A stretch of DNA of 64,000 nucleotides from contig NZ_AP026978.1 of assembly GCF_027924405.1 (NCBI RefSeq), positions 6,882,001 through 6,946,000 of the forward strand, given 5' to 3'. Below are positions 1 to 14,163 of this stretch, piece after piece. Position 1 is the stretch's first letter, and every line of letters begins with the position of its first letter. The position numbers and the translations under genes are program-made. The stretch comes from Nocardia sputorum (GTDB taxonomy: Bacteria > Actinomycetota > Actinomycetes > Mycobacteriales > Mycobacteriaceae). Under the pieces are notes generated by a model that searched no databases, was not told the origin of the DNA, and saw only the letters and a program-made list of their open reading frames with translations.

Positions 1-393
1 CGCGACGAGCAGCGGAACGGGGAACGGCAGTTCGGGCAGCACGCGATCGTGCACGCCCGCGCACAGGGCGGGATCGATCAGGAAGCGCGCCTTCGGATGC
101 TCGACCAGGAACGCCGCCATCGACAGCCGCATCTCCCGCAGGCTGCGCACACCCTCGGCCACGATGGTGGTCGGCGCGGACATGGTGGCCTGGGTCAGCA
201 CGGTCAGCCGGACGGTCGCGCTCGCGGCCGGCGGCGGCAGCACCTCGAGATTCGCCAGGAGCTCCTTGTCGGGGCGGCGCGGCCGCAACAAGCGGCCCGG
301 CGTGGCCGCCAAGGCGGCGCAGCAGCGCAGCAGGACGGGCAGAGTGGGCGTGCGCTCGGCACGGGTGGCGGCACCGCTGTCCGGTTCGGTCAC
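1..393 (-). CDS. MBL-fold metallo-hydrolase, N-terminal part (runs off the window)
   Basis: Only the first 131 codons are present; the gene continues past base 1. A GTG at 393 opens VTEPDSGAATRAERTPTLP and the frame stays open to the window edge. Residues near 95-130 (AAFLVEHPKARFLIDPALCAG) resemble the first strands of metallo-beta-lactamase-fold hydrolases, where a short hydrophobic strand leads into an LIDPG-like turn; the HxHxDH zinc motif would lie outside the window. It is transcribed away from the ACP/PKS/FAAL genes, sharing the 394-544 intergenic region. A hydrolase here could release or edit the polyketide product, because the PKS has no thioesterase; that is inference. The start is uncertain. 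Confidence 0.6.
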   Translation of the reverse strand, partial: MTEPDSGAATRAERTPTLPVLLRCCAALAATPGRLLRPRRPDKELLANLEVLPPPAASATVRLTVLTQATMSAPTTIVAEGVRSLREMRLSMAAFLVEHPKARFLIDPALCAGVHDRVLPELPFPVPLLVA

Positions 394-544
394 GGTGCCA
401 CGGTATGCGATCACCGCCGTTCGCGAAAGAGCCGGGCTGGCAGCGGATATGCGACCTTGCTCCGGGCGATTTCTCCGGCATAATCGCGGGGGTACCGTTC
501 TCGAGTGAGTGACAGCAGCCGGGGAGACGGGGAGGGAGAACGCG

Positions 545-841
545 ATGCGGCCCAGTCTTCCGGACGGGCACCGCGGTGCACCGGAGAACGATGGTTCGCT
601 GGGTCGTAGCCGGCGCGCCGTGCTCACCTGCGCCGCCGTCCTTGCTGTCGCCGACCTATTGGGCGTCGACGCCGCCGCGGTGTCGACCAGCTCGCCCTTC
701 ACCGATCTCGGCCTCGGTTCCACACAGCTCGCGAGGCTGACCGCCCATCTCGAAGACGCCATGGGAGTCGAGGTTCCGCTGACCGCGATCTACGACCATC
801 CGGACATCGAACAGCTTGTCGAGTACCTCGCGATGCGATGA
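545..841 (+). CDS. stand-alone acyl carrier protein
   Basis: A 98-residue protein with one phosphopantetheine-carrier domain. The attachment site is Ser59 in FTDLGLGSTQL, followed by the usual helix III/IV pattern (VPLTAIYDHPDIEQLVEYL). ATG 545 is preferred over the in-frame GTG at 509 because GGGAGGGAGAA lies just upstream. The stop TGA overlaps the ATG of the following PKS (ATGA), so the two are translationally coupled. In FAAL-PKS systems such a carrier takes the acyl group from acyl-AMP and hands it to the ketosynthase; that role is inferred from the order ACP-PKS-FAAL. The first ~30 residues are not part of the ACP fold. Confidence 0.88.
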   Translation: MRPSLPDGHRGAPENDGSLGRSRRAVLTCAAVLAVADLLGVDAAAVSTSSPFTDLGLGSTQLARLTAHLEDAMGVEVPLTAIYDHPDIEQLVEYLAMR

Positions 842-3800
842 GCGGCGCGCCCACGGATTCCGCCGGCTCGCATCCTCCCGTCGCCATCATCGGCATCGGC
901 TGCCGACTGCCCGGGGCGGCGAGCGCCGCCGAGTTCTGGCGGCTGCTGGTCGAGGGCCGCGACGCCACGTCCACCCCGCCCGCCGGGCGGCTGGGTTCCC
1001 GGCGCGGCGGGTACCTCGACGACGTCGAGTCCTTCGACAACGACTGGTTCGCCATCTCCGACCGCGAGGCGGCGGTCATGGACCCGCAGCAGCGGCTCGC
1101 GCTGGAAGTCGCGGTCGAGGCGCTGGACGACGCCGGGATCGGCTATCGCGCCAGGGGTTCCGGCGCCGCCGTCGTCTTCGGCGCTTCCGGGTACGACCAC
1201 GGCATCGCGGTGCTCGGCCGCGCCGGCCACGACGCCCCCTACGCGGTGACCGGCTCCGCGCTCAGCATCATCGCCAACCGGTTGTCGTACGTGCTCGATC
1301 TGCACGGGCCGAGCCTGGTGCTCGACAGCGCCTGCTCGTCCTCGCTCGCCGCGGTGGACCTCGCGGTCCGGCTGCTGGCCGACGGCACGGTGCCGTTCGC
1401 CATCGTGGGCGGCGTCAATCTGGTGCTTTTGGAGCACACCTCGAACTACCTTGCCGAGGGCGGTTTCCTGTCACCGGGCGGACGGTCGGCGCCGTTCGAC
1501 GCCACCGCCGACGGTTACGCCCGGGGCGACGGCTGCGCCGTCGTGGTGCTGCAACGCAGCGCGGACGCGGTGCGCGAGGGCAACCGGGTGTACGCGGAGA
1601 TCGTCGGCACCGCGGTCGGGTCGGACGGGCGCTCGAACGGCCTGTACGCCCCCAACGGCCGCGCGCAGCAGGAGACACTGCGCACCGCGTGGTCGCGGGC
1701 CGGGCGCGCGCCGAGCAGCGCCGGGTACATCGAATGCCACGGCACCGGAACGCCGCTGGGGGACGCGGTGGAAGTCGGCGCGCTCGCGGCCGCGCTCGGC
1801 GACGGCGCGAGCGACCCGATCTGGATCGGTTCGGTGAAGTCGAACATCGGACATCTGGAAGCCGCCGCCGGCGTCGCCGGGATGGTGAAGACCGCGCTGT
1901 CCATCCACCACGGGGTGATCCCCCCGACCATCCACCTGGACACCGAGCACCCTCTGCTGCACTTGGCCGAACGGGGGCTGCGTGTGCCGACCGAGCCGGT
2001 GGATTGGAGCCGGGTGGCCGCGCCGGAGCGCGTGGCGGGGGTCAGCTCGTTCGGATTCGGCGGCACGATCGCGCACATCGTGCTGCGCGGCACCCCGCCG
2101 ACCCGGCCGGATCATGGTGACCATTTCCCGATGCTGCTGCCGTTCACCGCACGCGACGACGAGGAACTGCGCGAACGCGCACTCCGGTTGGCCGACGAAT
2201 TGGACAAGGCGCGGCCACCGTTGCCCGAGTTCGTGTCTGCCGCGGCGCGCTCGATCTCCGAGCCGACCCGGGCCGCGATCGTCGCGCACGATCACGCGGA
2301 CGCGGTGCACCGGCTGCGCGCGTTCGGCCGCGGCGATACCGATGCGGCGCTCGGTCCGGTGACGAACCGCCGCCGCGGCGGGCTGTTGTTCCTGTTCTCC
2401 GGACAAGGTGGTCAGCATCCGAAGATGGGCCGCGCGTTGGCGGCGCGGTATCCGGCCTTCGCCGCCGCGCTCGCCGAGGCGACCGACGCGATCGTGACTG
2501 CGGGCGGGCCGCGGGTGTGGACGCCACGCCACGGCTTCACCTCGGCCGGCGAGACGCAACCCACCGATCTGGTGCAGCCCGCCTTGTTCGCGTTCCAGAT
2601 CGCGCTGGCGAAGTTGCTGGAGACGTGGGGGATTCGTCCCGATGCCGTGGCCGGGCACAGCTCGGGCGAGATCGCCGCGGCGGCGGCGAGCGGCGCGCTG
2701 TCCCTCGCGGATGCCGCGCGCGTGGTGGTGCTGCGCAGCGCGACCCTGGCGCATCTGGACGGGCACGGCGCGATGGCGGTGCTGGAGGCGGACCCGGACG
2801 AAGCCGCCAGACTCGTGGAACCGATGCGGGCGGAGGTGGCCATCGCCGCGATCAACGGCCCGCGATCGGTGGTCGTTTCCGGGACGCCGCGCTATGTCGA
2901 CGCGCTGGTGCGGCGGGCCACGCGCCGCAGCATGTTCGCGCGCAGGCTCGCGGTCGACTTCGCCGCGCACAGCCCGCAGGTCGCTACCGTGCTCGCGCCG
3001 TTCGTCGGGGCGTTGACCGAGATCGCACCGCTCGTCCCGCGCCTGCCGGTGTATTCGACGGCGCGGCGGGGCGTGAAACTCACCACCGCGGTCATGGACC
3101 GCGACTACTGGGCCGAGAACGCCACGGGCACGGTGGAGTTGGCGGCCGCGCTGGAGCGCGCGGCCGAAGACGGATTCTCGACCGTGCTCGAGATCGGCCC
3201 GCATCCGGTGCTGCTCCCGGCGGTGCGGGAGTACGCGGACTTCCGCGACGGCGCGCATTCCGTTGCCGTGCGCGAGGACGAGGCGAGCGCCTACCTCGCC
3301 GGCGTGGCCCGCCTGTACCTGGAGGGGCGTCCGATCGACTGGTCGGCGGTCGGCCCCTTCACCACGCCCGCGCCGCGGCGGTGGCGCAAGCGGAAGTTCC
3401 CGCTGCTGGTGGCCGGGCCCGCGAGCGCGCATGTCCCCGAAACCGCCTTCGAGGCCGAGGATCTCGCCGATCACGTGGTCCAGGGCGACAACATCGTCCC
3501 CGCCGTCTTCTGGCTTCGGAGGCTGCTGCACCTCGCCCGGGACACCGCGGGGACGGCCGCCGTGGCCGACTTCGCCGTGCACGAGCGGACCGATCCGAGC
3601 GTTCTGCCCGCGGTCGTCTATCGCGGACCGGGGCCGGAGGAAAGCGTACGGGCGGAGGTCACGGGCACCGGGACGCTGGCTTCGGCCCGGCCCGCCGGTG
3701 ACCCCACACCCGCGGATATCGTCGCATGGATGCGGGTGGTCGACGCAAATCGGGCCGCCCGGCATCAGATGCGAGTGGTCACCACCGGCGCGTTCTACCA

Positions 3801-5868
3801 GGAATTGCGCCGCAGGCGGCTGGAGTACGGGCCCCGGTTCCGCACGCTGCGCGGCATCGCCGCGGGCACCGGACGTGCGCTGGGATTGTTCGACGCCGCC
3901 GAATTGCATCGCACCGCAACGCTGGACGGCTGTCTCCAAGTGCTCGCCGCGGCGGTGTTCGACGAACTGCCCACGACGTCGATTCCGCTGCCGATCGGCA
4001 TCGATGCGGCCTGGTTGTCGCACGAGCCGAATCGCCACGTGCTCGAGGTACACGCCCTGATCCGGGAGCGCAGCGACACCGGGCTGGTCGGCGAGGTCGT
4101 CGCGACCGACCAGCACGGCGTGCCCTGTCTCGCCTTCTCCGGCGTGCACGTCCGTTACGCCGACGCGGCGGACGAGGAGAGCCCCGGCGGGCTTCGCGTG
4201 GCCCGTGCCCCGCAGACCGCGCCCTTCCGCCACGAGGTCTGGGAACCGCACGACCCCGGCTCGCTCGGAATCGGCGGCCCGGCCGGAACCCTCGTGCGGC
4301 GCGCGGTGGTGGTGGGCGCGTCGGATCTCGCGGTCCGGCTCGCCCGCGCGCTGGACGCCGAGTTGCCGACCGAACGGATCGCGCGTGAACCGGACGACGC
4401 GAGCCCGCTCGTCACCGCGGTCCTGACCGGGCGCGGCGGCGGCCACGGCGTAGTGGCCGTGTGGCCCGCGGACTCCGGCGCGCGCGACGACAGCGCCGCC
4501 GCGACGACTGGTCGCGTTCTCGAATTGCTGCAAGTGATCTCGAACCACGACGCCACCGCCTCCATGACGGTCGTGCTGCCGGTCTCCCGAGCCGACGAGC
4601 CCGGCACGGTGCCCCCGGTCGTCCCCGCGGCCATCGCCGGGCTGGTGCGCTCACTCCAGCTCGAGACGGACCGACCGGTGCGGCTGATCTGGACCGACCC
4701 GGATCTCAGGAACCTGCCGCTGCTCGCCCGCCTGGCGACGACTGCCGACAGCGCGATTCCCGGCGAGCTGCGCTTGTCGGCGGGCGAGGTCGCGGTGCGG
4801 CGCTTCACGCCCGCGCGAGCGCGCGCGCTGCCGGTGGCAGGCATCGACCCGAGCGGAACCTACGTCGTCACCGGCGGGCTGGGCGCGCTCGGCTCGGTCG
4901 CCGTGCGCTGGTTGCTCGAGGCGGGCGCGCGCGACGTGGTGGTGCTGACCCGGGCGCCGCGCCCGGTACCCGCACTGCTCGACGGCTTGGAGGACCGCAT
5001 CGTCGTGGTGCGCTGCGACGCCGCCGACCGGGTCGACCTGGCCAACGCGCTCAGCGATATCCGAGCCTCCGACTCGGTGATCCGCGGCGTCGTGCACGCG
5101 GCGGGAGTACTGGAGGACGCCCTGTTCGACGCGGTCACCGCGGGCCAGCTGGCCAGGATGTTTCTGCCCAAGTCCACCGCGGCGGGCAATCTCATCGAAC
5201 TCACCGCCACCGACACCACCGACTTCGTCTTGCTGTTCTCCTCGGCCACCGGTGCGCTCGGAGCGCCGGGGCAGGCCGCCTATGCCGCCGCCAACGCGGC
5301 CATGGACGCCCTCGCACTGCGTGATCCGGGCAGACGAGTCCTGAGCGTCGGCTGGGGCCTGTGGGATGCCGGTCTCGCCGCGGCGGCGGGCGGAGCGGGT
5401 CATCTGCGACGAGCGGGCGTCGGCGCGTTCGACGTTCGGCACGGAAGCGCCGTGCTGTCCCAGGCCCTGCGGTATGACGGCCCCTATCTGCTGGCGCTGG
5501 AACATTCGCCGACGACCGACGTCTCCCCGGTCGCGGTGCGGTTGGCGAATCTGCTCGCGCCGACGCTCGATTCGCGTCCCGACCCCACCCGGACGGCAGC
5601 GACACTCGAGCCCGCCGAACCGTTGTCCACAACCATCCGCCGCGTCCTGGCGAGCACGCTGGATCTGCCCGCCGAACGCATCGACCCGGCGGCCGACTTC
5701 AACACCCTCGGGCTCAGCTCGCTGCTCGCGATCGAGATGCGACGGAACCTGGAAGCGCGGCTGCGCGTCCGTATCGCCACCGCGGAGTTGTTCAAGCACC
5801 CCACCATCACCGCCCTCGGCGCGGCCCTGCTGGATCGGGTCGCGGCGAACCTCGGAGACGAGTCGTGA
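838..5868 (+). CDS. type I polyketide synthase, KS-AT-DH-KR-ACP
   Basis: A 1676-residue single-module synthase. KS (about 13-420) has the complete triad: Cys166 in DSACSSSLAA, His301 in HGTGTPLGD and His339 in SNIGHLEAA. AT (about 515-820) has Ser608 in GHSSGE; the specificity loop reads FAAHSPQV at about 708, nearer to YASH (methylmalonyl) than HAFH (malonyl), so extender choice is open. A dehydratase-like double hot-dog (about 870-1110) keeps His879 in HVVQGDNIVPA and a candidate Asp1030 in DGCLQ. KR (about 1340-1520) has GGLGALG and Ser1469/Tyr1482/Asn1486; the LED at GVLED suggests B-type. The terminal ACP carries LGLSSL (Ser1628). No enoylreductase or thioesterase is present, so the product should stay unsaturated or beta-hydroxylated and need external release. 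Start overlaps the ACP stop; end overlaps the FAAL start. Confidence 0.95.
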   Translation: MSGAPTDSAGSHPPVAIIGIGCRLPGAASAAEFWRLLVEGRDATSTPPAGRLGSRRGGYLDDVESFDNDWFAISDREAAVMDPQQRLALEVAVEALDDAGIGYRARGSGAAVVFGASGYDHGIAVLGRAGHDAPYAVTGSALSIIANRLSYVLDLHGPSLVLDSACSSSLAAVDLAVRLLADGTVPFAIVGGVNLVLLEHTSNYLAEGGFLSPGGRSAPFDATADGYARGDGCAVVVLQRSADAVREGNRVYAEIVGTAVGSDGRSNGLYAPNGRAQQETLRTAWSRAGRAPSSAGYIECHGTGTPLGDAVEVGALAAALGDGASDPIWIGSVKSNIGHLEAAAGVAGMVKTALSIHHGVIPPTIHLDTEHPLLHLAERGLRVPTEPVDWSRVAAPERVAGVSSFGFGGTIAHIVLRGTPPTRPDHGDHFPMLLPFTARDDEELRERALRLADELDKARPPLPEFVSAAARSISEPTRAAIVAHDHADAVHRLRAFGRGDTDAALGPVTNRRRGGLLFLFSGQGGQHPKMGRALAARYPAFAAALAEATDAIVTAGGPRVWTPRHGFTSAGETQPTDLVQPALFAFQIALAKLLETWGIRPDAVAGHSSGEIAAAAASGALSLADAARVVVLRSATLAHLDGHGAMAVLEADPDEAARLVEPMRAEVAIAAINGPRSVVVSGTPRYVDALVRRATRRSMFARRLAVDFAAHSPQVATVLAPFVGALTEIAPLVPRLPVYSTARRGVKLTTAVMDRDYWAENATGTVELAAALERAAEDGFSTVLEIGPHPVLLPAVREYADFRDGAHSVAVREDEASAYLAGVARLYLEGRPIDWSAVGPFTTPAPRRWRKRKFPLLVAGPASAHVPETAFEAEDLADHVVQGDNIVPAVFWLRRLLHLARDTAGTAAVADFAVHERTDPSVLPAVVYRGPGPEESVRAEVTGTGTLASARPAGDPTPADIVAWMRVVDANRAARHQMRVVTTGAFYQELRRRRLEYGPRFRTLRGIAAGTGRALGLFDAAELHRTATLDGCLQVLAAAVFDELPTTSIPLPIGIDAAWLSHEPNRHVLEVHALIRERSDTGLVGEVVATDQHGVPCLAFSGVHVRYADAADEESPGGLRVARAPQTAPFRHEVWEPHDPGSLGIGGPAGTLVRRAVVVGASDLAVRLARALDAELPTERIAREPDDASPLVTAVLTGRGGGHGVVAVWPADSGARDDSAAATTGRVLELLQVISNHDATASMTVVLPVSRADEPGTVPPVVPAAIAGLVRSLQLETDRPVRLIWTDPDLRNLPLLARLATTADSAIPGELRLSAGEVAVRRFTPARARALPVAGIDPSGTYVVTGGLGALGSVAVRWLLEAGARDVVVLTRAPRPVPALLDGLEDRIVVVRCDAADRVDLANALSDIRASDSVIRGVVHAAGVLEDALFDAVTAGQLARMFLPKSTAAGNLIELTATDTTDFVLLFSSATGALGAPGQAAYAAANAAMDALALRDPGRRVLSVGWGLWDAGLAAAAGGAGHLRRAGVGAFDVRHGSAVLSQALRYDGPYLLALEHSPTTDVSPVAVRLANLLAPTLDSRPDPTRTAATLEPAEPLSTTIRRVLASTLDLPAERIDPAADFNTLGLSSLLAIEMRRNLEARLRVRIATAELFKHPTITALGAALLDRVAANLGDES

Positions 5869-7700
5869 CCCGCGCCGAGCACCCGGCGGGCAATGGCCTC
5901 GCGACTTCGGTGGCCGCGTGGGCCGCCACGCGGCCGGACGAGCCCGCCTGCACCGAACTGCGCTTCCGTGTCCGGGAACGCGAGCCCGTCACGCTCACCT
6001 ACGCCGGTTTGCACGCCGCCGCGGGCGCGCTGGCGGCACGGTTGCGGCAGGAGAGCGCGCCCGGTGACCGGGTCGGCATCCTGTGCGCCCACGGAATCGA
6101 TTACGCGGTGGCATTTCTCGCCTGCCTGTACAGCAATCGAGTCGCGGTGCCGCTGTTCCCCGCCGCGGGCACCCGCAACCGCGACCGTCTGCAAGCCGTG
6201 CTGGCCGACGCGCGGCCCACGCTGGGCCTGATCTCGGCGCACGACGAGATCACCGCGCCGGTCCTCGGGCCCGCACTGGGCCGGGTAGTCACCGTCGCGT
6301 CGGCTTCCTTCGTCCCTGAACAGGATTCAGCTGAACGGATCAGCGCGTATCCGGGGGCCGCGACGACGGGAACGGCGCGGTACGCGGGATCCCTGAAGAC
6401 GCGTTTCGGCACGCAAGCGGGCGCGTCGGACGCTGCCGCACCGGTCATAGATCCGGTATCCGACGAGCTGGCCTACTTGCAGTACACCTCCGGTTCGACC
6501 AAGTCTCCCGCCGGCGTCCGGGTCACCCACGAGAACCTCGCCACGGCGTTGACGCAGCTCGGGCACGCCGTGTCGGGCGCGGCCGACCGGCCGATCGTCA
6601 CCTGGCTGCCGTTCTTCCACGACATGGGTTTGATCCTCGGCCTCGCGCTGCCGCTGTTCCTGGGCGTGCACGGCATCACGCTGGCGCCGGCGGAGTTCGT
6701 GAAGCGCCCCGCCCGGTGGCTGCGTGCGATCGCCGACTACCGCGCCGGCACCACGGGATGCCCGAATTTCGGACTGAAACTCGCGGTGACCGGCACCACC
6801 CCCGCCGAGCGAGCCGGGCTGGATCTGTCCGGACTCGACATCGTGCTCAACGGCTCCGAGCCGGTGCGCGCCGACGTGCTCGAGGCGTTCACCGAGACCT
6901 TCGGTCCGTACGGTTTCCGCCATCACGCGCACACCCCCGGCTTCGGCTTGGCCGAGGCCACCCTCACGGTCACCGTCTGCGATCAGCACGCGGCCCCGGT
7001 GTGGCACCGATTCGACCGGGCGGCACTGGCCGAGGGGCGCGCGGTCGCCCTACCCGAGACCGCGGAGGCCGCGGACGGTGTGCCGCTGGTCGGGTGCGGC
7101 GCACCCGTCGGGCAGGAGCTGCGCATCGTCGATCCGATGGCGGGGACAGTGTTGCCCGCGGGACGCGTCGGCGAGATCTGGGTGGCCGGAGACAATATCT
7201 GCGACGGCTATTTCGGCAGGCCGGACGCCACCGCGGAGATCTTCGGCGCCGCGGTGCCGGGAAGCGGCGCCCGCTGGCTGCGCACCGGGGATCTCGGGTT
7301 CCAGCACGAAGGGCAGCTCTATATTGCGGGCCGCCGCAAGGACGTCATCGTGGTCGACGGACGCAATCACTATCCCGCCGACATCGAGGCGACGGTGCAG
7401 GCATGTGCTCCGGAGGTCAGATCGGGCCATGTGACGGCGTTCGGGCACGACGACGGGCTCCGGGAGGATTTGGTCGTGGTCGCGGAACTGGTCACGGCCC
7501 GCGGACGCGAGCCCATCGAACTCTTCGCCCTGGCTCGGCGCATCCGCACCGCGGTCGCGTCCGCGCACGAGGTGATGCCGGGAGCGGTGCTGCTCGTGGA
7601 GGCGGGACGGATTCCCAAGACCAGCAGCGGGAAATTGCGCCGCGGCGAGTGCCGGGCACGGTACCTCGCGGGGACCCTGAGCCCGGTGGCCATGATCTGA
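5865..7700 (+). CDS. fatty acyl-AMP ligase (FAAL/FadD-like)
   Basis: A 611-residue adenylate-forming enzyme. It starts at a GTG that overlaps the PKS stop (GTGA). The AMP-binding P-loop is YTSGSTKSPAG (from Tyr207), later motifs include the A8-like GRRKDVIVVDGRNHYP, and the C-terminal subdomain ends with a PKTSSGKLRR segment carrying the adenylation lysine. The overall pattern (LTYAGLHAAAGALAARL near the start, LPFFHDMGLI in the middle) is that of FAAL enzymes rather than CoA ligases. It should convert a free fatty acid to acyl-AMP and load it on the upstream ACP to prime the PKS. Absence of CoA ligase activity is predicted from family resemblance, not shown here. Confidence 0.92.
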   Translation: MTRAEHPAGNGLATSVAAWAATRPDEPACTELRFRVREREPVTLTYAGLHAAAGALAARLRQESAPGDRVGILCAHGIDYAVAFLACLYSNRVAVPLFPAAGTRNRDRLQAVLADARPTLGLISAHDEITAPVLGPALGRVVTVASASFVPEQDSAERISAYPGAATTGTARYAGSLKTRFGTQAGASDAAAPVIDPVSDELAYLQYTSGSTKSPAGVRVTHENLATALTQLGHAVSGAADRPIVTWLPFFHDMGLILGLALPLFLGVHGITLAPAEFVKRPARWLRAIADYRAGTTGCPNFGLKLAVTGTTPAERAGLDLSGLDIVLNGSEPVRADVLEAFTETFGPYGFRHHAHTPGFGLAEATLTVTVCDQHAAPVWHRFDRAALAEGRAVALPETAEAADGVPLVGCGAPVGQELRIVDPMAGTVLPAGRVGEIWVAGDNICDGYFGRPDATAEIFGAAVPGSGARWLRTGDLGFQHEGQLYIAGRRKDVIVVDGRNHYPADIEATVQACAPEVRSGHVTAFGHDDGLREDLVVVAELVTARGREPIELFALARRIRTAVASAHEVMPGAVLLVEAGRIPKTSSGKLRRGECRARYLAGTLSPVAMI

Positions 7701-7709
7701 CCTTCTCGA

Positions 7710-8114
7710 TCAGTGCTCGGGTCGGCCCATGAGCCGATCGGTCTCGCGACGCTCACGCTTGGTCGGCCGCCCCGCACCGCGATCGCGACGAGGCATGCTC
7801 GCCACTATCTCGCGCGGGGGAGGGGGCGGACTGCGATCGATCAAGCATTGCGCGGCGATCGGAGCGCCGACGCGCTTGGTGACGATCCGCTCCACGATGA
7901 CGATGCGTTCGATGCCCCCCGCCCGGATGCGGACCTCGTCACCGGGACGCACGGGCTGCGCGGGCTTGGCCGTCGCGCCGTTCACCCGGACGTGTCCGCC
8001 ACGACAGGCTTCCGCAGCAGCGGATCTGGTCTTGAACAGGCGCACCGCCCAGGTCCACGAGTCGACGCGGGCCTGGGTAGCGGTGCTTTGGATGCCGGAT
8101 TCGGCGCGGGCCAC
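7710..8114 (-). CDS. S4-domain RNA-binding protein (Hsp15/HslR-like)
   Basis: A 134-residue protein. Residues about 16-75 form an S4 domain: RVDSWTWAVRLFKTRSAAAEACR, then GHVRVNGATAKPAQPVRPGDEVRI. The rest is a basic, proline-containing tail. Family members such as Hsp15 bind 50S subunits carrying a nascent chain after stalling. The GTG start lies 3 nt after the TAA of the NlpC/P60 gene, so the two are translationally coupled and would share the c-di-AMP riboswitch. The gene ends 9 nt from the convergent FAAL. Confidence 0.85.
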   Translation of the reverse strand: MARAESGIQSTATQARVDSWTWAVRLFKTRSAAAEACRGGHVRVNGATAKPAQPVRPGDEVRIRAGGIERIVIVERIVTKRVGAPIAAQCLIDRSPPPPPREIVASMPRRDRGAGRPTKRERRETDRLMGRPEH

Positions 8115-8117
8115 TCG

Positions 8118-8777
8118 TTAGACGATACGGCGTGCGGTGACCACCATGTCGGGGCGCAGCGGCGTGTAGGACACCGGCGTACCCGTCTGCACCGCGTTGA
8201 GGAGCTTGTTGTCGCCCGCGTAGATGCCGACGTGACCGCCGCCGTTGGTGATGACGATGTCACCCGGCTTCAGGTCGTGGTAGGCGACCGGAGCGCCGAC
8301 GTGCGACTGCTCGAAGCTGGTGCGGGGCAGTTCGACGCCCGCCTGGCGGAACGCCCACTGGACGAGGCCGGAGCAGTCGAAGGAGCGGGGACCCGCGGCG
8401 CCCCACGAGTACTGGGCGCCGACCTTGGTCCTGGCGGCGTCGAGGGCGATGTCGCCCGGGGAGTTGTTCTGCTGCTGACCGAACAGGCCCGGCAGCATGG
8501 GCGCGAAGTTGGGAGCTTGGGGAGCGACCTCTTGCGGCGCCTGGGCAGGGGCGGCGGGAACGGCCGCGAGCGCCTGCTGGATCTGCTGATTGAGCTGCTG
8601 GACCGGCTGTTCCCATTCTTGCGGAACGTCGAAATTGCCGACACCGGGAACGTTGATGGTCGCGGCCATGGCCGGAATCGCGGGCATGGCGCCGGTCGCG
8701 GCCACCGCACCCATGACAATCGCACCCTTGACGGAATTCGGAACCCGAGAATCCCGTTGCAAGCTGTGTTTACCCAC
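8118..8777 (-). CDS. secreted NlpC/P60 peptidoglycan endopeptidase
   Basis: A 219-residue protein starting at GTG 8777, with GGAG about 10 nt upstream and directly behind the riboswitch. A signal peptide (KGAIVMGAVAATGAMPAIPAMAAT) is followed by a Gln/Ala/Pro-rich linker and a C-terminal NlpC/P60 domain with Cys135 in SFDCSGLVQW and His182 in GGGHVGIYAG. The family cleaves peptide stems of peptidoglycan (D-iGlu-mDAP bond) and acts in cell separation and wall remodelling, like the mycobacterial Rip proteins. Placement behind a c-di-AMP riboswitch fits wall hydrolases controlled by osmotic or turgor signalling. A longer in-frame start at 8912 lies inside the riboswitch and was rejected. Confidence 0.92.
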   Translation of the reverse strand: MGKHSLQRDSRVPNSVKGAIVMGAVAATGAMPAIPAMAATINVPGVGNFDVPQEWEQPVQQLNQQIQQALAAVPAAPAQAPQEVAPQAPNFAPMLPGLFGQQQNNSPGDIALDAARTKVGAQYSWGAAGPRSFDCSGLVQWAFRQAGVELPRTSFEQSHVGAPVAYHDLKPGDIVITNGGGHVGIYAGDNKLLNAVQTGTPVSYTPLRPDMVVTARRIV

Positions 8778-8799
8778 CGAGCTACGTCTCCGATCTTGC

Positions 8800-8927
8800 T
8801 GCTCTCCCGCCGACCGGGTTAGCTGACGGGTTCGGGCCGGGAGAGCGGCCCTACCCCACGACCGGCATGGCCGCGAGGATTCACCCCAGACGAACCTGTG
8901 GGTCCCCGGCACGACAGCCGAGACCGG
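8800..8927 (-). ncRNA. cyclic di-AMP riboswitch (ydaO-yuaA class)
   Basis: Read on the minus strand, the leader contains the conserved blocks of this class in order: CCGGGGACCCACAGG, then GGGGTGAATCC, GTAGGGCCGCT, and finally CCCGAACCCGTCAGCTAACC followed by CGGTCGGCGGGAG. In actinobacteria this riboswitch sits before rpf, NlpC/P60 and other wall-hydrolase genes and reduces their expression when c-di-AMP is high. Here the last block ends about 25 nt before the GTG of the NlpC/P60 gene. The outer boundaries are approximate. Recognition is from memory of the consensus; a covariance-model search was not run. Confidence 0.92.
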
Positions 8928-10927: not shown

Positions 10928-12883
10928 ATGGCGACAGCCGCGAAAGTCGACGCCACCGAAGAGCAGGCCCGCGCACTGGTCGAGGAGTCCCGCGAAACAA
11001 GCTGGGCCAAGCCGTCCTTCGCCAAGGAGATGTTCCTGGGACGGTTCCGGCTCGATCTCATCCATCCGTATCCGCAGCCCGGCGCCGAGGACGCCGAGCG
11101 CACCGACGCGTTCCTGGCCCGGCTGCGGAAGCTGTGCGAGTCCATCGACGGATCGGTGATCGAAGCGGAGGGTCGGATCCCGGACGAGTACGTCAAGGGC
11201 CTGGCCGAACTCGGCTGCTTCGGCCTGAAGATCCCGCAATCCTATGGCGGCCAGGGGCTTTCCCAGGTCGGTTACAACCGCGCGCTGATGCTGGTCGGCT
11301 CGACGCACCCGAGCCTCGGTGTCCTGCTGTCGGCGCATCAGTCCATCGGTGTGCCCGAGCCGCTCAAGCTGGCAGGCACCGACGAGCAGAAGGCCGAATT
11401 CCTGCCGCGCTGCGCGGCCGGGGCGGTCAGCGCGTTCCTGCTCACCGAGCCCGACGTCGGTTCCGACCCGGCCAGGATGGCCAGCACCGCGACGCCGACC
11501 GACGACGGCGAGGCCTACCTGCTCAACGGCGTGAAGCTGTGGACCACCAACGGCGTGGTCGCCGAACTGCTGGTGGTGATGGCGCGGGTGCCCAAGAGCG
11601 AGGGGCATCGCGGCGGCATCTCGGCGTTCGTGGTCGAAGCCGATTCCCCGGGCATCACCGTGGAGCGGCGCAACTCCTTCATGGGCTTGCGCGGCATCGA
11701 GAACGGCTTGACCCGCATGCACGACGTCCGGGTGCCCAAGCGCAACCTGATCGGCCGGGAGGGCGACGGCCTCAAGATCGCGCTCACCACTCTGAACGCG
11801 GGCCGGCTCGCCATCCCGGCGATGTGCACCGCGGCCGCCAAGTGGTCGTTGAAGATCGCGCGGGAGTGGAGCACCCAGCGCGTGCAGTGGGGCAGGCCGG
11901 TCGGCGAGCACGCGGCCGTGGGCCAGAAGATCTCGTTCATCGCCGCGACGACGTTCGCCCTGGAAGCGGCGCTCGACCTGTCGGCCACCATGTCCGACGA
12001 AGGCCGCAACGACATCCGGATCGAGGCGGCGCTGGCGAAGCTGTGGGCCAGTGAGATGAGCTGTCAGATCGCCGACGAACTCGTGCAGATCCGGGGCGGC
12101 CGCGGCTACGAGACGGCGGCTTCGCTCGCCGCGCGGGGCGAACGGGCCGTCCCCGCCGAGCAGTTGGTGCGCGATCTGCGGATCAACCGCATCTTCGAGG
12201 GCTCCAGCGAGATCATGCGGCTGTTGATCGCCAGGGAGATGGCCGACGCGCACATGGCGGCCGCGGGCGCGCTGGTCGACCGTAAGGCCGAGTTCAAGGA
12301 CAAGGCGAAGGCGGCGGTCGGGGCGACGGGCTTCTACGCCAAGTGGTTCCCGCAGCTGGCGGTCGGCGCGGGGACGGTGCCCGCGGCATACACCGAATTC
12401 GGCGTGCTCGCCCGGCACCTGCGATTCGTCGAGCGCAGCGCGCGCAAGCAGGCGAGATCGCTGATGTACGCGATGGGCCGCTGGCAGGCGGGCCTGGAGT
12501 ACCGGCAGAACTTCCTCGGCCGGATCGTTGACATCGGTGCCGAGCTGTTCGCCATGTCGGCGGCCTGCGTGCGGGCCCAGGCATTGCGCGCCGCGGACGC
12601 GCCGGAAGGCAAGGCGGCCGAGGAACTGGCGGACGTCTTCTGCAGGCAGTCGCGGCTGCGCGTACGCCGGTTGTTCGACGCGCTGTGGGAGAACACCGAC
12701 GACGACGACCGCACCCTCACCCGCGGTGTGCTGGACGGCCGGTACGAGTGGCTGGAGAGCGGCGTCCTCGATCCGAGCGAGGGGACCGGGCCGTGGATCG
12801 CGGAGTGGCAGATGGGTGCGTCGACCGAGGAGAACCTCCTGCGCCCCTTCCTGCCGTCCACACGTCCGCGCGCGGAGGCCTGA
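10928..12883 (+). CDS. acyl-CoA dehydrogenase, long form
   Basis: A 651-residue flavoenzyme for alpha,beta-dehydrogenation of acyl-CoA in beta-oxidation. Strong ribosome site GAGGGAGGA before ATG 10928. The N-terminal half has the FAD-binding blocks FLLTEPDVGSDPARM and LWTTNG; the middle has TQRVQWGRPVGEH and QIRGGRGYE; RIFEGSSEIMRLLIARE is the C-terminal block that carries the catalytic Glu. About 200 extra residues after that block form a second helical domain, as in VLCAD/ACAD9-type and some mycobacterial FadE enzymes, which are usually membrane-associated and long-chain selective. It is monocistronic, ends at a strong terminator, and has a CRP-like box at its promoter. The substrate is not evident. 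Confidence 0.92.
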   Translation: MATAAKVDATEEQARALVEESRETSWAKPSFAKEMFLGRFRLDLIHPYPQPGAEDAERTDAFLARLRKLCESIDGSVIEAEGRIPDEYVKGLAELGCFGLKIPQSYGGQGLSQVGYNRALMLVGSTHPSLGVLLSAHQSIGVPEPLKLAGTDEQKAEFLPRCAAGAVSAFLLTEPDVGSDPARMASTATPTDDGEAYLLNGVKLWTTNGVVAELLVVMARVPKSEGHRGGISAFVVEADSPGITVERRNSFMGLRGIENGLTRMHDVRVPKRNLIGREGDGLKIALTTLNAGRLAIPAMCTAAAKWSLKIAREWSTQRVQWGRPVGEHAAVGQKISFIAATTFALEAALDLSATMSDEGRNDIRIEAALAKLWASEMSCQIADELVQIRGGRGYETAASLAARGERAVPAEQLVRDLRINRIFEGSSEIMRLLIAREMADAHMAAAGALVDRKAEFKDKAKAAVGATGFYAKWFPQLAVGAGTVPAAYTEFGVLARHLRFVERSARKQARSLMYAMGRWQAGLEYRQNFLGRIVDIGAELFAMSAACVRAQALRAADAPEGKAAEELADVFCRQSRLRVRRLFDALWENTDDDDRTLTRGVLDGRYEWLESGVLDPSEGTGPWIAEWQMGASTEENLLRPFLPSTRPRAEA

Positions 12884-13008: not shown

Positions 13009-13200
13009 AAAGGAATCTAGTCCGAGGACTATCGTTCCGTAGATTTTCCTGTGCGCATGGCGATGGCCGCTGGATCGACCGGCAGCCTCGGTTGGGCAAC
13101 GTGTCCATAACGGCAGGTGTGGGCCGGTAACGGCGCGGAAATCCAGTCCGACAACTGGGCAGGAAGCGCCGATCATGCGCCTCGCCCACAGGAGAGTGCC

Positions 13201-14163
13201 ATGTCCACCACCATCGCCCGCCGCGCCGCCGATCACGACGGTCACCGCGTCACGGTGTCGGCCGGGGACGGCGTTCCCCTCGCGGTCCGCGTCTTCGGCG
13301 CCGATGACGCCGCCGCGACCGTCGTCTTCGTGCACGGGCACTGCTTGCGCACCGAATCGTGGTTCTACCTGCGCGAGCACCTGCTGCGGCGATGGGGCGA
13401 CGACACCAGGATGGTGTTCTACGACCATCGCGGTCACGGCGAATCCGGGGCAGCGCATCCGTCGACCTACACCATCGAGCAGCTCGGCCACGACCTGGAC
13501 GCCGTGCTGCGGACGGTCGCGCCGACCGGGCCGGTGATCCTGGTCGGCCACTCGATGGGCGCGATGGCGGTGCTCGCCTACGCCCGGCTGTACCCGGAGG
13601 CGATCGGTACCCGGATCGCCGGTGTCGGGTTGCTCGCGGCCGCGGCCGCCGGAATCACCGAGGTAGGACTGGCGCGCCTGCTCCACCGACGGACGGTGAG
13701 CTCGCTGCAAGCCGCCGTCGCGCGGGCGCCGCGCGTCATGCAGGCTTCCCGGCATCTGACCCGCCGCTTGTTCGCGCCGGTGCTGCGCGACGCCGAGTTC
13801 GGCACCAGGAAGGTGAACCCGCGGGTGGCCGCGCTGGCCACCGCGATGCTCAACGACACGCCGCTGGTGACCATGACCGGCTTCCTGCACTCGCTGATCG
13901 CTTTCGACGAGACGGCGACCCTCTGCCGCCTCGGCGCCATCCCCGTGCTGGTGCTGGCGGGCTCGGCGGACATCATCTTCCCGTTCGCGCATTCGGTGGC
14001 CCTGGCTTCCCAGCTGGCCGGCGCCGAACTCGTCCGCCTGGAAGGCGCCGGACACAGTGTGATGCTCGAACGCGCCGAAGAGGTCGCGCTGTCCATCGCC
14101 GCACTCACCGAACGCGCCGTCGCGGCGGCGGCCGCCTGCACCGGGTACGCCGCCGCGGGTTGA
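13201..14163 (+). CDS. alpha/beta hydrolase
   Basis: A 320-residue hydrolase. ATG 13201 follows AGGAG by 6 nt. The oxyanion segment is VVFVHGHCLRTESW, the nucleophile is Ser118 in VGHSMGA, the acid is the Asp in VLAGSADIIFP and the base is the His in LEGAGHSVML, so the triad is complete. A cap of about 80 helical residues separates strands. The family covers esterases, lipases and epoxide or haloalkane hydrolases; nothing here fixes the substrate. No secretion signal. It appears to be monocistronic. Confidence 0.88.
   Translation: MSTTIARRAADHDGHRVTVSAGDGVPLAVRVFGADDAAATVVFVHGHCLRTESWFYLREHLLRRWGDDTRMVFYDHRGHGESGAAHPSTYTIEQLGHDLDAVLRTVAPTGPVILVGHSMGAMAVLAYARLYPEAIGTRIAGVGLLAAAAAGITEVGLARLLHRRTVSSLQAAVARAPRVMQASRHLTRRLFAPVLRDAEFGTRKVNPRVAALATAMLNDTPLVTMTGFLHSLIAFDETATLCRLGAIPVLVLAGSADIIFPFAHSVALASQLAGAELVRLEGAGHSVMLERAEEVALSIAALTERAVAAAAACTGYAAAG

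Follow-up and report, generated by a model that had tools for sequence, protein, structure and literature searches.

Architecture of the three-gene unit

The window analyzed here is a 64,000-nucleotide stretch (positions 6882001-6946000) of the single-contig, 7.43-Mb genome of Nocardia sputorum; its relatives are Nocardia. Three co-directional genes, read as ORFs at 509 (or 545)-841, 838-5868, and 5865-7700 of the window, sequentially encode a discrete acyl carrier protein (ACP), a polyketide synthase (PKS), and a fatty acyl-AMP ligase (FAAL). Adjacent genes overlap by ATGA at 838-841 (ACP/synthase) and by GTGA at 5865-5868 (synthase/FAAL). An earlier note on this DNA had described three coupled genes with these overlaps, and every ORF and overlap was re-read as described there. 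Its assignment of a carrier, a KS-AT-DH-KR-ACP synthase, and a fatty acyl-AMP ligase agrees with the Pfam domains, which are PP-binding in the first gene, ketoacyl-synt, Acyl_transf_1, PS-DH, KR, and PP-binding in the second, and AMP-binding with a DIP2-like AMP C-domain in the third.

The discrete ACP (545-841, plus strand) comprises 98 residues and matches PF00550 with E=7.6e-15. GTG 509 is an alternative start, and ATG 545 appears more likely because a GGGAGGGAG stretch precedes it. The phosphopantetheine serine is present in 45 of 46 aligned relatives; the one without it is a frameshifted draft, L076.

The synthase (838-5868, plus strand) is a one-module type I PKS of 1676 residues, delineated by Pfam, catalytic residues, and 45 aligned relatives. 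The KS domain spans residues 14-420 (877-2097) and contains Cys166, His301, and His339. The AT domain (residues 515-845, 2380-3372) carries the nucleophile Ser608, encoded at 2659-2661, and a FAAH motif at residues 708-711. It is followed by a DH domain at about residues 870-1150 (3445-4287) with His879 and Asp1030, a KR domain at about residues 1336-1545 (4843-5472) with Ser1469 and Tyr1482, and a C-terminal ACP domain (5632-5829, PF00550 E=3.9e-13) with Ser1627. All active residues are thus in place: Cys/His/His in KS, Ser and His in AT, His and Asp in DH, Ser and Tyr in KR, and Ser in ACP, with the roles usual in these families. The protein contains what defines a type I modular PKS, namely KS, AT, KR, and ACP with catalytic residues, DH being optional.

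The ligase (5865-7700, plus strand) has 611 residues, matches PF00501 and PF23024, and finds FAAL proteins as its best PDB matches. FAALs are diagnosed by a specific insertion relative to CoA ligases. By direct length count, the protein is 26 residues longer at this stretch than the FadD5 CoA ligase of the same genome, and it is similar in length there to the mycobacterial FadD32 in L097. By fold and insertion the ligase is a FAAL, predicted to form acyl-AMP without transfer to CoA. Some FAAL matches seemed to contain TGA stops. The frame of one re-read locus, L038, is open to a stop after an SSGK motif, on which basis we take these as terminal stops; none of the 49 named loci has a stop inside its best FAAL match.

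The unit is bounded on the right by two minus-strand genes (7710-8912), encoding a 134-residue S4-like protein (7710-8114; named from the sequence, with no family call) and an NlpC/P60 protein (8118-8912). This pair is conserved at the edge of the site, including sites that lack the unit. On the left, the 5' part of a divergent gene for an MBL-fold hydrolase of 330 residues occupies 1-414 on the minus strand. The gene was completed leftward on the same contig, from a start taken at 414 past the window edge to about -578, and the full translated frame matches PF00753 with E=8.7e-17.

Distribution and synteny in Nocardia

Of 148 Nocardia genomes, 77 contain a FAAL match at E of 1e-100 or lower. 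Orthologues were delimited by gaps in score, giving FAAL in 72 genomes (at least 417 bits; next score 352) and the MBL-fold protein in 108 (at least 410 bits; next score 330). In a family-level search, 8 of 201 genomes passed 1e-100, six in the window's genus and two in one other genus; the latter two matches score 338-350 bits and lie under the orthologue gap. Both genes are present in 51 of the 148 Nocardia genomes, FAAL alone in 21, the hydrolase alone in 57, and neither in 19 (Fisher p=0.58).

Named loci were taken from the best 80 of 520 places. Of these, 49 are in Nocardia, where the unit is syntenic, and the others show at most 46% identity. Of 50 loci (the 49 and the window), 45 yielded a PKS that could be aligned, and the gene order is therefore far beyond chance. 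Left out of the alignment were L049 and L063 (no PKS on the contig), L056 and L085 (truncated), and L076 (the frameshifted draft). The three-gene unit is intact in the window, syntenic throughout Nocardia, compact, and Nocardia-specific. The comparison of gene order in other Nocardia, proposed in the earlier note, thus recovered a syntenic unit, but many copies turned out to be catalytically dead or the site to be empty.

Linker length in the synthase is hypervariable, and the linker sequence seemingly of low complexity, whereas domains and neighboring genes are conserved. Among the 45 aligned synthases, the KS-AT linker measures 81-660 residues, the AT-DH linker 27-436, the KR-ACP linker up to 241, and the DH region 246-629. 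Intact domains are near constant in length, with KS at 395-410 residues except for 487 in L064; KR measures 310 residues in L069. An in-frame extra stretch of about 88 residues (5624-5889 of L064) lies inside KS near residue 323. The inserts in L057, L067, and L070 look to be of low complexity, and tandem repeats fill 13 rows in L057 and 2 in L070. The window synthase is compact; the window holds a single repeat row, located outside the unit.

Eroded copies of the synthase

Eighty-one synthases were aligned at the AT nucleophile, which is serine in 41 (intact copies) and glycine in 40 (eroded copies). All 40 glycine copies have lost the C-terminal ACP, and only 2 keep the KS cysteine. Each of them is still readable as a single uninterrupted frame. 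The KR tyrosine is still present in six eroded copies (L182, L150, L142, and L153-L155). Six eroded copies belong to the named loci and come from N. suismassiliense, N. ninae, N. colli, N. altamirensis, N. brasiliensis, and N. vulneris. All six show the AT serine-to-glycine change and loss of both the KR tyrosine and the C-terminal ACP; the KS cysteine is lost in four and the DH histidine kept in six. Their FAAL motifs and discrete ACP serine remain.

The 57 hydrolase-positive, FAAL-negative sites fall into 36 with a PKS-derived ORF, 20 that are empty, and one (L169) that a contig end truncates. Two of the 36 ORFs, L138 and L144, still have the AT serine; the remaining 34 are eroded, with lengths of 647 to 1908 codons. 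The smallest forms, found in 15 genomes, are reduced to AT, a short DH fragment, and the first part of KR. In all 15, an ATG lies six codons ahead of AT, with no clear ribosome site.

The two serine-bearing ORFs fit plain decay in progress. In L138, from a close relative (G042), ACP and PKS are intact and remnants of the start, middle, and end of FAAL are found at 12145-12501. L144 (7528-12973) keeps the AT serine and has lost the C-terminal ACP, the discrete ACP, and FAAL; it is possibly an early stage of erosion. In addition, the draft L076, an eroded N. brasiliensis locus, has frameshifts in the genes of the unit.

Replacement of the AT nucleophile by glycine

Position 608 is serine in 41 of 41 intact and glycine in 40 of 40 eroded copies, while Gly606, Gly610, and Glu611 do not vary in any of the 81 sequences. 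Among 101 AT positions conserved in intact copies, whose mean retention in the eroded ones is 0.76, position 608 is the least retained. At no other of these positions does one and the same substitute occur in at least 30 of the 40 eroded copies. The KS cysteine, where its position remains, is replaced by Y, R, G, P, S, Q, or D.

A glycine at a strained nucleophile turn would be expected to keep the fold without catalysis. The AT of the eroded N. brasiliensis copy, modeled with its glycine from 18 sequences, is predicted to adopt the AT fold (pLDDT 82.8, pTM 0.78), and the top PDB matches of the model are AT structures. The codons may also have contributed. Ser608 is encoded in intact copies by AGC (29), AGT (11), or TCG (1), and the fixed glycine might derive partly from the easy transition of AGC/AGT to GGC/GGT.

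Independent origins and selection

A flank tree built from six genes (1944 columns, 105 loci) requires at least eight changes between intact and eroded states. L169 and L174 were left out of this tree, the latter being included in the protein tree; L049, L056, L063, and L085 were labeled intact without the AT serine having been seen, and L076 was labeled eroded by kinship and partial matches. The protein tree, calculated from AT and KR columns with position 608 omitted, requires at least six changes. A single eroded clade is rejected, with a difference of 194 log units and p-AU of 1.7e-12. Comparison of loci shows the unit to be dispensable and repeatedly dismantled; in at least six to eight lineages, the synthase is without its C-terminal ACP and AT nucleophile and remains an open frame.

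As a rough estimate, one change from AGC/AGT yields glycine with a chance of about 0.29 if transitions are favored fourfold. Six to eight identical changes would therefore be unlikely, at about 5e-4 to 4e-5 (again rough), or 0.016 to 0.004 with a bound of 0.5 per event.

The dN/dS values, calculated by NG86, which is crude in GC-rich genomes, and from pairs that are not independent, range from 0.18 to 0.28 in 10 intact pairs and from 0.23 to 0.47 in 55 eroded pairs with dS below 0.75. In a frame control on 15 eroded pairs, the true frame gave 0.23-0.43 and shifted frames 0.90-2.93; third positions differ most in these pairs. Gaps in pairs of eroded ORFs are multiples of three in length in 310 of 385 cases, the pairs sharing history and the rest being alignment artefacts or compensated shifts, and this count carries no weight in our reading. 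Catalytic residues have been lost in the eroded copies, and the dN/dS values indicate purifying selection after the loss.

The eroded copies might alternatively be ordinary pseudogenes that decay slowly while high GC keeps their frames open by chance. Long chance ORFs are indeed common here, as exemplified by an antisense ORF of 1025 residues inside the window PKS gene; yet in each of the 34 eroded copies at FAAL-negative sites, the PKS matches share a single frame. Losses of domains vary by lineage, 20 of the 57 sites are empty, L138 and L144 resemble early stages, and L076 is frameshifted, all as expected of decay. However, dN/dS is well under 1 within clades of shared eroded architecture and reaches at least 0.90 when the frame is shifted, and the AT glycine and its neighbors Gly606, Gly610, and Glu611 show no variation among the 40 copies. 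We consider decay of this ordinary kind unlikely as an account of the eroded copies.

The eroded proteins are more probably maintained pseudoenzymes, which keep the fold of AT and the first half of the KR fold for a putative non-catalytic role. Whatever the dead forms do is dispensable, since 20 of the 57 sites are empty. The window would then carry the catalytic form of the ancestral type. As a whole, the locus is probably best explained as a predicted fatty-acid-extending unit that was repeatedly dismantled into maintained pseudoenzymes. A further proposal holds that the synthase was turned dead at least six to eight times in one genus, each time with the same serine-to-glycine change at the AT nucleophile, and that selection has retained the dead protein, with its AT fold and the front of its KR fold, for a structural or regulatory function in which the intact enzyme may share; we regard this one as evenly balanced.

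The surprising part of the locus history is that the synthase was converted, more than once, into seemingly maintained dead enzymes. This amounts to a natural experiment with replicates: an assembly-line enzyme gives up catalysis, stays under selection, and undergoes a convergent change of one residue. Should the dead forms prove functional, PKS proteins could serve purposes other than catalysis, and cluster mining by PKS domain count would overcall active pathways in such species.

Predicted reaction and chain release

The domains of the intact unit suggest a short reaction sequence. FAAL would activate a fatty acid as acyl-AMP and load it onto the discrete ACP. KS would take the chain from this carrier and condense it with an extender that AT places on the C-terminal ACP. 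KR and DH would convert the product, now longer by two carbons, into a 3-hydroxy- or 2-enoyl-acyl chain, which an enzyme encoded elsewhere would remove. Both the product and the release step are predictions from the gene content. The compact FAAL-PKS of the window is small enough to make reconstitution in vitro feasible.

Pfam lists neither a thioesterase nor an enoyl-reductase domain in the three genes, and the absence of a thioesterase claimed in the earlier note is accurate for the unit. Nor was a release enzyme found among the neighbors scanned with Pfam, which cover part of the window. An alpha/beta-hydrolase gene at 13117-14163 gives a weak PF00975 match (30.9 bits against a cut-off of 26.4) and was rejected as a dedicated release partner because it also lies beside an empty site, L139; a non-dedicated part in release is conceivable. 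Downstream of FAAL, relatives encode a short protein with no Pfam match, ParB-like by eye, and then a CPA2-type antiporter; neither fits a release enzyme.

Instead of being released, the chain might be passed straight on to a different synthase or transferase whose gene lies elsewhere in the genome. The lack of a release domain in the unit would suit such a transfer, as would the other PKS regions of the genome and its two further FAAL candidates above the Pfam cut-off; no docking partner was identified, however, and no partner gene is syntenic beyond the three, which leaves direct transfer a doubtful candidate. Two regions of the same genome, L135 (4344500-4353500) and L136 (3592500-3606000), contain FAAL-like sequences adjoining or fused with PKS.

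Still less probable is a role of the MBL-fold protein as a dedicated thioesterase that releases the chain. Its gene is divergent to the unit in the window and in many relatives, and MBL-fold hydrolases can act on thioesters. Nevertheless, its presence is independent of FAAL in the 148 Nocardia genomes, with many genomes having one gene without the other in either direction, on which basis a link to the unit was rejected. Its nearest families are lactonases, all matched well under their cut-offs. The divergent metallo-hydrolase of the earlier note is thus real, but the suggested link to the unit fails. Identity as an AHL lactonase was likewise rejected, the NCBIfam AttM model giving 58 bits against a cut-off of 390. 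The genome contains a second MBL-fold paralogue at 3203967-3204896, which is 53% identical to the locus-side protein.

Comparison with known systems

The best NCBIfam match of the synthase is PKS_plus_SDR (NF045894), with 940 bits against a cut-off of 1740, which is not reached. The Pks13 model (NF040607) gives 635 bits against 2100, and the Mas/Pks2 model (NF041183) 599 against 2400. Among 41 KS sequences placed in a tree, those of the Nocardia locus group by themselves (SH-aLRT 100, stem 0.79), apart from Pks13 (100) and from three paralogues of the same genome of 2121-2182 residues (100). This group joins a FAAL-fed group that includes Pks13 with a support of 86. The earlier note had named a tight grouping of KS with a known lipid synthase of the same product as refuting its reading; the tree shows a separate clade. 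A complete Pks13 (2696 bits) is encoded at 7215601, about 326 kb from the end of FAAL, and the note's statement that the synthase is not Pks13 holds on model scores, clade, and this separate gene alike.

Pks13 has the order ACP-KS-AT-ACP-TE in one chain. In the FadD32-Pks13 system, the FAAL loads an N-terminal ACP that feeds KS-AT, and the standalone ACP, PKS, and FAAL of the window match the Pks13/FadD32 models. The window unit differs in that a gene of its own encodes the ACP, the synthase contains DH and KR, a thioesterase is missing, no AccD4 neighbor was called, and KS forms its own clade; membership was rejected. Synthases of the Mas/Pks2 type share the one-module KS-AT-DH-KR-ACP core, and MAS chains are the best PDB matches of the window PKS. 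However, Pfam lists no enoyl reductase in the window protein, which has 1676 residues against 2086 positions in the Pks2 model, and this membership was rejected as well. A divergent synthase of the mycolate (Pks13) or mycocerosate type is thus highly improbable as the identity of the unit: the FadD32 and Pks13 models do rank among the top NCBIfam matches of FAAL and PKS, but the scores lie far under the cut-offs, DH and KR are present without TE and ER, and the KS clade and the complete Pks13 are separate.

The nearest systems outside Nocardia are clusters of other actinomycetes such as L091 from Saccharothrix, which consists of FAAL, ACP-KS, a luciferase-like oxygenase, and AT-DH-KR-ACP; L088-L095 are similar. 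Its order equals that of the window unit, split at the KS/AT border. L091-L093 also have the AT motif FAAHS in common with the window synthase, and the FAALs of L088-L093 and L095 are 42-46% identical (L090, a Nocardia locus, falls within these numbers and is not one of the clusters). Clusters of this type differ in being parts of longer ones, in which an oxygenase separates KS from AT and another PKS with a KS follows downstream. In L091 (11653-18035), the luciferase-like monooxygenase gene lies between the ACP-KS and AT-DH-KR-ACP genes, downstream of FAAL.

We know of no PKS family that has been repeatedly converted into a pseudoenzyme in this way. The eroded copies resemble the general class of pseudoenzymes that have lost the nucleophile and kept the fold: here too the catalytic residue is replaced, and the fold is predicted to persist.
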